This document shows, in pieces, positions 35,739 to 38,094 of a stretch of DNA of 64,000 nucleotides. The DNA is from Microbacterium festucae (GTDB lineage Bacteria > Actinomycetota > Actinomycetes > Actinomycetales > Microbacteriaceae). Each line of letters opens with the position of its first letter. Position 1 is the stretch's first letter. Below the pieces are notes generated by a model. That model saw only the letters and a list, made by a program, of their open reading frames with translations. It ran no database searches and was not told where the DNA came from. Both the position numbers and the translations under genes were made by a program. The DNA lies in assembly GCF_025421715.1 (NCBI RefSeq), contig NZ_JAOEFC010000001.1:1116001-1180000 (forward strand), given 5' to 3'.

Positions 35739-36110
35739 ATGGACCGCACGCCCCACCGCCGCGACGACGGCGAGCTGCTCGGCTGGATCCGCGCCGAGGG
35801 GGACGGCTGGGTCGCGATCGACCTGCTCGGGCGCGAGGTGACCGGCGGCGTGGAGTGGCTCGACGCCGAGGCCGCGCTCGAGCGGCACGGCATCGCCTAC
35901 CTCGCCGACCCGTGGATGCTCGAGGGTGACGGCGCGCCGCTGCGCGTGCGGCTGGTCGAGGTCACGCCCGCGCGCATCGTGGTCAAGGCCGACGACTTCG
36001 GCGACATCACGCGGGCGGCGCCGCTGATCGAGCTGCCGTGGCCGCTGCCGGCGCGGCTGCGCCCGCCGCGGGACGGCGACCCCGACGCGTTCACGGTCAG
36101 CCGCGACTGA
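35739..36110 (+). CDS. Hypothetical 123-residue soluble protein
   Basis: A small acidic protein with an early GWIRAEGDGWVAIDLLGREV segment and a C-terminal LIELPWPLPARLRPP. I recognise no family. ATG 35739 is 6 nt after -10 TAGCGT (35727-35732). Its 3' end overlaps the convergent membrane-protein gene by 14 bp. Confidence 0.75.
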   Translation: MDRTPHRRDDGELLGWIRAEGDGWVAIDLLGREVTGGVEWLDAEAALERHGIAYLADPWMLEGDGAPLRVRLVEVTPARIVVKADDFGDITRAAPLIELPWPLPARLRPPRDGDPDAFTVSRD

Positions 36111-36762
36111 CCGCCGCGCGCAGGCGCGCGAGATCGGCATCGGCGAACGCCGCGCGGGGCAGGATCGCCACCGCGCCGCGCGCCGTCGTCAGCCGCAGGA
36201 ACACCGCGCTCGCGCTCACGTCCACACGTCGCACCGCCGACACCTGCATCTCGCTGCGCCCCATCGCGCTCGACATCGCGAGCATCTGGCCGTCGCATCC
36301 GGCCCAGAAGGTCGACCCCGGCGGGAACGCGCGCGCGACCGATGAGCGCGTGAGGCCGTAGACGAGCGCGGCGATCACGGCCAGCAGCACGAGCCAGAGA
36401 CCGACCATCACGACCCCGAACGGGTCGCCGGTGGCCACTGTCAGCACGACCGCCCCCGCCGTCAGCACGCCGGCGACCACCCACAGCGCGATCCACAGCG
36501 GACGCGTGAGCGTCCACGACGTGTACTCCCGCGCGAGCCGCCCCGCCAGCCCCGCATCCGCCACCGCCCCGCCGGCCGTCGCCCCGTCGGTCGGCTGCGC
36601 CCCGCCGGGTGCCGCAGGCGCTACGGGCGGCTGCGCCGCGTCGGCCGGCTGTGCCGCGTCGGGCGGCTGCGCCGTGTCGGCCGTCGCACGCGGCTCGGTA
36701 CCCGGCGCAGGCGTCGCGGGCGCGGTGGGCTCGGGCTCCGGTGCGAAGGGCGTCTGGTCCAT
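36097..36762 (-). CDS. Membrane protein with Pro/Ala-rich N-terminus and PH-like domain
   Basis: A 221-residue protein. The first 70 residues are Pro/Ala/Gln-rich with repeated AAQP(A/P)DA motifs, then two helices (about 92-112 and 118-140), then a cytoplasmic YcxB/PH-like domain (STFWAGCDGQMLAMSSAMGR..). ATG 36762 is 7 nt from -10 CATACT (36770-36775). The function is unknown. An 84-bp palindromic repeat begins 29 bp upstream of the start. Confidence 0.75.
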   Translation of the reverse strand: MDQTPFAPEPEPTAPATPAPGTEPRATADTAQPPDAAQPADAAQPPVAPAAPGGAQPTDGATAGGAVADAGLAGRLAREYTSWTLTRPLWIALWVVAGVLTAGAVVLTVATGDPFGVVMVGLWLVLLAVIAALVYGLTRSSVARAFPPGSTFWAGCDGQMLAMSSAMGRSEMQVSAVRRVDVSASAVFLRLTTARGAVAILPRAAFADADLARLRAAVSRG

Positions 36763-36790
36763 CCCGGGCAGTATGCCAGACCTCCCCGCC

Positions 36791-36874
36791 CGCGAAACTC
36801 CTCCAATCCGGCCGCCCCGCGCCCCGATCTGGCTGGTTCGCGGCCCTGCGGGCTCGATGTGGAGGAGTTTCGCG
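36791..36874. repeat. 84-bp palindromic element, copy D1
   Basis: Arms CGCGAAACTCCTCCA (36791-36805) and its exact complement (36860-36874) enclose a 54-nt interior. It lies in the 390-bp gap 36763-37152, which also holds D2 and a G/C-rich stretch and has no visible gene. Confidence 0.92.
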
Positions 36875-36963
36875 GCGCCGGGGAGGCACGACCCCACAAC
36901 CCCCGGGTGTCGAGCTCGGGCGACCCGCAGCCGTGGGCCCGCGAGGGCCCCGACCTTCCCGCC

Positions 36964-37047
36964 CGCGAAACTCCTCCAATCCGGCCGCCCCGCGCCCCGA
37001 TCTGGCTGGTTCGCCACCCTTCTGACTCGAACTGGAGGAGTTTCGCG
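36964..37047. repeat. 84-bp palindromic element, copy D2
   Basis: Same arms as D1. It is identical to D1 for about the first 51 bp, then the right half of the interior diverges while the total length stays exactly 84 bp. Confidence 0.92.
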
Positions 37048-37140
37048 GGGCCGAAGGGCCGAAGCCGCGGTCCCGGCTCGCGAGGAGGCGGGACAGCCGG
37101 CTCCAGGGCTGCGGGGCTGCGGGGCGCGGCGGGGCGCGGG

Positions 37141-37146
37141 TAGCGT
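37141..37146 (+). promoter_or_regulatory. -10 element of the lipoprotein gene
   Basis: TAGCGT is 6 nt before ATG 37153, the same spacing as other leaderless genes here. It supports a start upstream of, not after, the D3 repeat. Confidence 0.5.
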
Positions 37147-37152
37147 GACGGC

Positions 37153-38094
37153 ATGCCCGGGGTGGTTCGCGAAACTCCTCCGATCCGTGTGCGAAAGGAC
37201 CGGATCGGGGCGGTTCGTGGGGCGACGGGGCCGAAGTGGAGGAGTTTCGCGGGGGTGGTGGCCGTGGGGCTGCTGCTCGCGGGGTGCGCGGCGACCCCGG
37301 CGGACTCGGCCGCGGCGGCGCGGGAGCTGCCGGCGGGGATGAGTGCGGAGCTGATCCAGCTGCGGTCGGACGTCGCGGCGCGGCAGGCGGAGGTGCGGAT
37401 CGTGAACGGCACGGGGGAGCCGATCGAGGTGGGCGCGGTCTCGGTGGCCGACCCGCGGTTCCGCGCGCCGGCGGAGCGCGTGGTGGACCGCACGTCGACC
37501 CTCGCGCCGGGGGCCACGGTCGATGTGCGCGTGCAGCTGGGCGCGGCCGCCTGCGGGGTGGCTGCGGAGCCGGCCGCGACGCTCACCCTGCGCGGCGCGC
37601 GGGGGGACGAGCCGTTCGCGGCGGTCGTGCCGATCGCCGAGGCCATTCCGTTCCTCGCGGCCCTGCACGAGCGCGAGTGCGTGCAGGAGGGGGCGGAGCG
37701 CTCGGCCGACATCGCGCTCGGCGTCTTCACCCCGTCGGATGCCGGGGCGCCCGCGGCGCTGGAGCTCCAGGTCGCCCCGCGCCCGGGCGACGGGGTGCTG
37801 CGCATCACGGGCATCCGCGAGACGAACCTGCTCACCTTCGACGGGGTCGTCGGCGGCGCGCTGGCTCTCGACATCGATCAGACCGGCGCCGACCGTTCCG
37901 CGCAGTCGGTGTCGCTGCCGCTGCGGCCCGCGCGCTGCGATCCGCACGCGGTGCTGGAGGACAAGCGGGGCACGGTGTTCCGGCTGCTCGTCGAGGTCGA
38001 CGGCGTCGCGGGCTCGTTCGACCTCGCCGCCTCGCCGGAGCTGCGGGGCGAGCTGCTGGGCTGGGTCGCCCGGTGGTGCGGCTACGGGTCCTGA
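37153..38094 (+). CDS. Lipoprotein with repeat-derived signal peptide
   Basis: A 313-residue protein. The lipobox LLLAGC (Cys46) is preceded by a basic region (RVRKDR, KWR) encoded by an 84-bp D repeat (37168-37251). The mature part is a predicted beta-rich extracytoplasmic domain with a Cys pair candidate and no recognised family. ATG 37153 is supported by a leaderless -10. GTG 37255 has GGAGGAG upstream but would leave only 10 uncharged residues before the lipid Cys, too short for export. Confidence 0.78.
   Translation: MPGVVRETPPIRVRKDRIGAVRGATGPKWRSFAGVVAVGLLLAGCAATPADSAAAARELPAGMSAELIQLRSDVAARQAEVRIVNGTGEPIEVGAVSVADPRFRAPAERVVDRTSTLAPGATVDVRVQLGAAACGVAAEPAATLTLRGARGDEPFAAVVPIAEAIPFLAALHERECVQEGAERSADIALGVFTPSDAGAPAALELQVAPRPGDGVLRITGIRETNLLTFDGVVGGALALDIDQTGADRSAQSVSLPLRPARCDPHAVLEDKRGTVFRLLVEVDGVAGSFDLAASPELRGELLGWVARWCGYGS
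37168..37251. repeat. 84-bp palindromic element, copy D3 (inside a coding region)
   Basis: Arms CGCGAAACTCCTCC (37168-37181) and the complement (37238-37251). The interior is largely different from D1/D2 but shares ATCCG and GGTTCG blocks. It lies in frame in the lipoprotein gene and encodes about residues 6-33. Confidence 0.92.

Follow-up and report, generated by a model that had tools for sequence, protein, structure and literature searches.

Here we report that a gene for a predicted lipoprotein of Microbacterium festucae carries, across its 5' end, a member of a dispersed family of paired inverted arms that would code for the charged n-region of the signal peptide, and we identify a protein with an AbiEi-like half and a nuclease half as the likely reader of these elements. 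Taken jointly, we consider this the best explanation of the data and hold it to be probable, with appreciable room for doubt. A repeat system with a DNA-cutting partner and species-specific arm codes seems not to have been described before. It presents a tractable protein-DNA code, apparently changed many times within one genus and written both beside the partner gene and at dispersed sites, and allows a direct test of joint change in DNA-binding specificity and its sites. In addition, the lipoprotein shows how proteins take up a DNA element in frame, and the system points to a nuclease from a different superfamily in a role resembling that of RAYTs.

The gene lies at 37153-38094 on the forward strand of the window (the whole stretch of 64,000 nucleotides that was analysed) and encodes 313 residues that matched no Pfam family; a scan of 36700-37400 against Rfam returned nothing up to an E-value of 1. 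Read directly rather than with a signal-peptide predictor, the protein begins MPGVVRETPPIRVRKDRIGAVRGATGPKWRSFAGVVAVGLLLAGC and presents the features of a lipoprotein, namely a charged n-region, a hydrophobic h-region and a lipobox, LLLAGC, whose cysteine is residue 45 (codon 37285-37287, forward strand). Two paired-arm elements, D1 (36791-36874, AAC..GTT core 36796-36869) and D2 (36964-37047, core 36969-37042), are located upstream of the gene, and a third, D3 (approximately 37168-37251, core 37173-37246), lies within it; the core spans 74 nt in each. The first-pass annotation of this DNA had placed D3 in frame between the ATG at 37153 and the lipobox, and had named it as the source of the basic residues of the signal peptide. 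Both statements are borne out by the reading frame: D3 codes for residues 6-33, and all eight basic residues that precede the lipobox cysteine (R6, R12, R14, K15, R17, R22, K28 and R30) fall inside it, with no lysine or arginine elsewhere ahead of the cysteine. Translation likewise reproduced the related peptide (RETPPIR...WRSFA) that had been noted in the same frame through D1 and D2.

These elements belong to a family found throughout the 3.33-Mb genome (G000). The arm CGAAACTCCTCC is present in 22 + 21 copies, as against none for the reversed control, and 30 inverted pairs of the form AACTCCTCC-N-GGAGGAGTT were found, D1-D3 among them, again with none for the reversed pattern; within the window, six arm matches with at most one mismatch compare with 0.17 expected. 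The 30 pairs have spans of 74 (20 pairs), 86 (six) and 73 nt (four). Alignment of 19 elements of span 74 yielded the arm consensus CGCGAAACTCCTCCA-N-TCCG, in which about 20 bases per arm are conserved and the middle hardly at all, and within the arm AAC is constant, the next six bases form the code, and the (R)NTCCG that follows is largely constant. Elements are grouped locally in twos or threes, in part with middles that are alike; between dispersed copies the middles are hardly conserved. Across the family, spans fall into classes of 73-75 nt and also 63-64 and 85-86 nt; the classes near 64, 74 and 86 lie some 10.5 bp apart, about one helical turn, which suggests a protein in contact with both arms from the same face of double-stranded DNA. 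The AAC..GTT ends had prompted a comparison with attC sites, the boxes of which read RYYYAAC and GTTRRRY, and this candidate was dropped when, by eye, those boxes did not fit. In the wider genus, a generic pattern with free code positions and at most one mismatch (AAC-N6-RNTCCG-N44-CGGANY-N6-GTT) was matched in 51 of 149 genomes, and its reversed control in two of 149. Many matches have two N6 stretches that mirror each other, though the pattern does not require it, and some single matches look like chance.

Using the mature part of the lipoprotein as query (E<=1e-30), we identified an orthologue in 95 of 366 genomes of the genus, the N-terminal end of which was readable in 91 (those of G286, G250 and G219 were not fetched, and that of G290 begins at a contig edge). 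The region searched extended from -230 to +20 nt relative to the lipobox, and pairs were required to have at least 8 of 9 arm bases and an anchored AAC or GTT. An inverted pair was found at or just before the signal peptide in 15 of the 91, the M. festucae gene included, and in eight under a stricter threshold of 10 of 13 bases. All 15 pairs have a span of 74 (n=7) or 75 (n=8), with no pair at any of the 59 remaining spans between 50 and 110. The earlier reading of D3 as a repeat captured as coding sequence thus stands in so far as a dispersed repeat supplies the n-region, and falls as a one-off event, given the 14 further orthologues with such a pair; nor is it clear that the capture was recent. 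A check for orthologues lacking the repeat, proposed with that reading, returned 76 of 91, which contradicts the notion that all carry it. The 15 pairs display eight clear codes (TCCTCC, TCCGGA, TCCTTC, TCCACC/G, TCCTGC, TCCTCA, GTCGC(T/C) and TCAGTC) and one mixed code, in G330, where TCCTGA is combined with TCCGGA. In G153 and G097 the right arm is positioned further upstream than in the other orthologues with a pair. The middles of differently coded lipoprotein elements are near shuffled identity, so that at this gene a change of code in place is indistinguishable from re-insertion.

The nearest orthologue found, in G372, is 73% identical over the mature part. The block GCGGGTA(G/C)CGTGACGGCATG, which runs from promoter to ATG, is common to the window and G372, as is the divergent neighbour gene (36097-36762, reverse strand; 72% identity over 147 residues). 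Between two shared landmarks, however, the window has 384 bp, containing D1 and D2, versus 38 bp in G372; neither AACTCC nor GGAGTT occurs in the 3.3-kb locus of G372, and the two proteins are homologous from residue 42 of the window protein onwards. From this alignment, the predicted promoter and start are shared with G372 and D1-D3 are not.

Other repeats were also seen at these signal peptides. In G018 (L104 / L095), one inverted pair with arms GTATTCAGTCTCC and a span of 76 precedes the lipoprotein; this pair, with TTCAGTCTCC arms, is a single copy in G018 and was excluded from the 15. A similar N-terminal peptide occurs in L101 (G308). The peptide MPRH is common to the orthologues L132, L114 (twice), L129, L143, L148 and L159, and the DNA encoding it reads GATGCCGCGACAC in two orthologues, possibly representing a further repeat family; L132 additionally has a 75-nt pair.

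A candidate partner for the elements was identified at about G000:C1:168192-169064 (L051:2693-3565), a gene with an element cluster on both sides. Its product matches PF18741 (MTES_1575 REase) at E 7.9e-8, a value below the curated cut-off, and DUF559 at E 0.003. PF18741 matches were present in 18 of 18 genomes searched, and among the 90 loci read in these genomes, same-code elements flank the gene on both sides in 17 and on one side in five, 73 of the 90 not being bracketed on both sides; five single pairs with unfamiliar arms (L245, L246, L248, L281 and L313) were taken as chance. In a tree of 87 of the proteins, 20 of the 22 element-flanked loci fall into one clade of 30 rows (support 100/100), outside which lie 55 of the 70 unbracketed rows. 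Within that tree, a subclade of 16 rows is represented once each in 16 of the 18 genomes, and elements accompany 15 of its members. Among the loci read, span 55 also gave three perfect pairs.

We extended this comparison to named genomes using an alignment of the family, with 80 of the 97 relatives found entering the count; by title, 74 of these loci are from Microbacterium, five from a Microbacteriaceae bacterium and one from an Actinomycetota bacterium. Arms that are equal or one base apart bracket the gene on both sides at 42 of the 80 loci and not at the other 38. Since eight of the 80 repeat the first set (six of them bracketed), the loci new to this set give 36 bracketed of 72; among the 80, three pairs of loci are near-identical. 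Perfect pairs at these loci again concentrate at spans of 73 (n=16), 74 (n=51) and 75 (n=5), 72 in all, while among other spans from 40 to 130 only 63 (n=3) and 64 (n=2) exceed one each. As a control, bracketing around an ABC-F gene was observed in 0 of 30 cases. No paper connecting proteins with PF18741 or DUF559 to repeats appeared in a search of the open-access literature made mostly at listing level. Additional observations at such loci include a second PF18741 gene in the M. festucae genome (L284; G000:C1:183900-188100), bracketed with code TCAGGC at span 63, and a more distant PF18741 gene in G161 (L311) with bracketing pairs that have arms AACTGCAAG and AACGGCAAG and a span of 76. Between the upstream element and the start of the partner gene, shared short blocks such as TCCTCC(A/C)CAG and TCCAC(A/G)GATC were recognised by eye at L266, L272, L301, L306 and L284.

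The partner protein is predicted to consist of an AbiEi-like half joined to a nuclease half of the Vsr/EDxHD fold, both halves being recognisable by fold in a structure model of the L329 protein built from 36 sequences (pLDDT 89.5, pTM 0.83). The top Foldseek match of the model is an AbiEi antitoxin (E 1.4e-4). Residues 17-177 align with AbiEi at Z 6.9 over 155 residues, a score below the tool's safe level, and the AbiEi_4 profile matches nine of 16 family members at E<=0.1 (best 5.1e-6). Residues 181-280 resemble I-Bth0305I (Z 14.2), ngo0050 (Z 13.5) and Vsr (Z 12.9), and PF18741 matches all 16 aligned family members at E<=0.1. Seven residues (E185, D212, E222, D224, H229, D238 and D242) are invariant in all 36 sequences. 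The C-terminal tail, which for several members extends into the element downstream, is modelled at low confidence. To our knowledge AbiEi and Rv2827c, unlike the partner, have no nuclease domain.

When the 43 bracketed units (the 42 named loci together with that of M. festucae) were compared, with both flanks required to match on the same sides, single linkage of 243 pairs placed 31 of them in one neighbourhood group; a looser criterion of any shared flank gave 35 of 43 and 277 pairs. The M. festucae unit, with code TCCTCC, matches on both flanks L328 (TCCACC), L332 (TCCTCC), L370 (TCCGGA) and L374 (TCCACG). Judging from these neighbourhoods, the partner gene is apparently passed down in place, and the elements on its two sides differ in code. 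The partner copy of G025 belongs to a different neighbourhood group. L051/L081, considered as a conserved place with different arms, was rejected because the match is the partner gene itself. The code at the lipoprotein equals that at the partner gene in G000, G025, G364, G074 and G109; G301 shows this agreement on one flank, and G008 has a single arm of matching code near its partner gene. A mismatch was seen in G161, whose lipoprotein element reads TCCTTC and whose partner gene from that clade has TCCACG.

Differences in code appear to be accompanied by differences in the protein. In an identity-matched comparison of 59 proteins of known code (150 same-code pairs), residues 94, 97, 95 and 47 (L329 numbering) are the top four of 281 columns for same-code agreement, with an excess of 0.37-0.40 against a median of 0. 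Of the 32 proteins with C or T as the fifth code base, 28 have Gly95, versus 0 of 27 with G; Arg94 occurs in seven of seven TCCTCC proteins versus seven of 52 others. Code and protein also follow the tree. A quick tree of the 59 proteins, with 16 codes, gives 22 code changes, and in the 87-protein tree all code groups together require 17 changes versus 17.6 when shuffled, i.e. no extra clustering, with TCCGGA the sole code among those listed to form one group. Phylogenetically independent pairs on supported branches numbered only two (a mean of 1.8 in the expected direction, 0 against), too few for significance to be reachable. The case that residues 47 and 94-97 track the arm code is strong but not conclusive.

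We tentatively propose, at somewhat less than even likelihood, a new type of repeat system in which an AbiEi-nuclease, its gene inherited in place, would read paired arms from one face of the helix. A change in its recognition loop would lead to the six-base code being rewritten, in place, across the sites of that genome, so that Microbacterium species would bear different codes at partly shared loci, some of them within genes whose proteins would have adapted. Site number is 30 in the M. festucae genome and lower in the relatives counted. Shared positions and a fixed partner gene favour maintained sites; the clusters of elements and the comparison with G372 favour gain and loss. Among the alternatives, the one that survives best is a selfish mobile family, like REPINs or MITEs, in which the nuclease copies or moves the elements and D3 is a chance landing in a tolerant site. 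The lack of D1, D2 and D3 in G372, the clusters of two or three elements with some middles alike, and a bracketed partner gene reminiscent of REPIN clusters beside RAYT genes all point in this direction. However, dispersed copies share little in their middles, inspection of element flanks by eye revealed no target-site duplication, and with 31 of 43 bracketed units in one neighbourhood group despite differing codes, the gene itself seems immobile. We regard selfish spread as a serious possibility, yet one falling short of an even chance.

Rather unlikely, in our estimation, is a purely regulatory role, whereby the arms would be operator sites of an AbiEi-like regulator at the starts of the lipoprotein and rdgB genes and their coding function incidental. 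AbiEi and Rv2827c are described as binding paired inverted repeats in promoters (PMC7319586), and besides the lipoprotein start an element of span 74 lies across the start of rdgB in G000, G103, G104 and G144 (L094:838-911, also L091, L092 and L093). Of the two arms at rdgB, one is upstream and the other consists of native HKVEEF codons within the coding sequence, which suggests that an arm present by chance can be joined by a second one at the proper distance. Against an operator, the element clusters of the M. festucae genome sit in convergent, divergent and co-directional gaps as well as inside genes, with no orientation bias in a reading by eye based on a home-made gene finder and made without a formal count.

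It is improbable that the lipoprotein is instead translated from downstream of D3, with the repeat as 5' untranslated sequence. A GTG at 37255-37257 on the forward strand follows D3, and a good Shine-Dalgarno-like sequence, GGAGGAG, lies 10 nt ahead of it, but its product, MVAVGLLLAGC, would have no basic residue and hence no n-region charge, making this start unlikely. The block from promoter to ATG common to G372 also argues against it, as does the right arm: by its position, it shares one frame with the lipobox in each of the 15 orthologues with a pair, yielding RSC, RSF, RSS, RRC and similar. That the arms are simply conserved lipoprotein coding sequence, as their presence in 15 of 91 orthologues might be taken to indicate, is contradicted by the 76 without a pair, by G372, which keeps promoter and ATG without one, and by the 30 pairs that the same arms form genome-wide, and has almost no chance of being right.

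Under the explanation that we prefer, of D3 as a coding member of the family with the AbiEi-nuclease as its reader, transcription would start at the ATG at 37153 and give a leaderless mRNA. The ATG is preceded at a distance of 6 nt by a -10-like hexamer, TAGCGT (37141-37146, forward strand), from which a leaderless promoter is inferred. In the 64-kb window, TANNNT motifs precede ATG at 6 nt in 12 cases and 7 nt in seven, and no other distance between 0 and 24 nt has more than two; these peaks are the mark of leaderless genes in the window, and the arrangement TAGCGT-N6-ATG at 37141-37155 matches it. Translation from this ATG would supply, through D3, residues 6-33 and with them all of the positive charge in the signal peptide, followed by the h-region and lipobox, and the product would be exported as a lipoprotein. 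One point against this is that the implied n-region, at about 34 residues, is unusually long. The reader would most likely be the partner protein, whose gene the same elements bracket. Two copies of it may bind, one to each arm, along a single face of the helix, and nicks or cuts nearby would follow; repair could then keep, copy or occasionally seed elements, which would persist in intergenic DNA and wherever a gene tolerates them. The arm code and the loop of the protein seem to vary in step, with the outcome that species would come to differ in code at partly the same places. Binding and cutting of DNA by the partner are predictions of this scheme.

Several features of the system have counterparts elsewhere. 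Rickettsia palindromic elements are palindromic repeats located in frame inside genes. The elements described here resemble them in arrangement, being likewise in frame in genes, and unlike those of Rickettsia they are linked to a candidate reader gene. REPINs, which occur in Pseudomonas and other bacteria, are described as clustered inverted doublets with conserved ends at a fixed distance and a less conserved spacer, a cluster of which lies beside each RAYT gene, the RAYT phylogeny being largely congruent with that of the species (PMC3116915). Our family shares the inverted conserved ends, fixed distance and variable spacer. It differs in having an AbiEi-Vsr/EDxHD partner, spans that step by about one helical turn, and codes that vary between species at shared places. 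By eye, no GTAG/CGTC-type REP tag is apparent in the arm consensus. A RAYT as driver of the elements was rejected, as the Y1 transposase (PF01797) was found in 0 of 12 genomes searched, with five of 14 control genomes positive; the family works like REPIN/RAYT but, for want of this transposase, is not a member.

The two halves of the partner invite separate comparisons. The predicted fold of residues 17-177 is shared with AbiEi and Rv2827c, which bind paired inverted repeats; those repeats are given as 23 bp long, 3 or 13 bp apart and in the proteins' own promoter (PMC7319586). The nuclease domain is predicted to share its fold with Vsr and with the EDxHD homing endonuclease I-Bth0305I, the latter being reported to dimerise on a target just short of 60 bp (PMC3943268). 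Unlike I-Bth0305I, the partner is free-standing and chromosomal, belongs mostly to one neighbourhood group and has arms on both sides of its gene. The PF18741 domain, which members of the partner family match, was named from the Vsr-type REase MTES_1575 of Microbacterium testaceum, which, in contrast to the partner, has multiple domains and exceeds 2,100 residues, and the passages that describe it mention no repeats (PMC3710099).

Finally, in-frame elements are not confined to the lipoprotein: besides the one across the rdgB start, they were observed in the ABC-F gene, at the C-terminal end of a NadB-like gene and at that of the partner gene itself (the names ABC-F, NadB-like and rdgB were assigned by eye, without a family search). 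The ABC-F element (L052:2187-2277; G000:C1:547195-547267) is in frame in the middle of its gene (L052:1047-2702). A pair in this linker was found in 12 of 30 orthologues, with other codes and with spans of 64 (three), 73 (six) and 85 (three); one additional pair, at span 65, is chance-like. At L059:1908-1999, the element codes for part of the C-terminal tail of the NadB-like protein (...QTPPI...KWRSFAG...).
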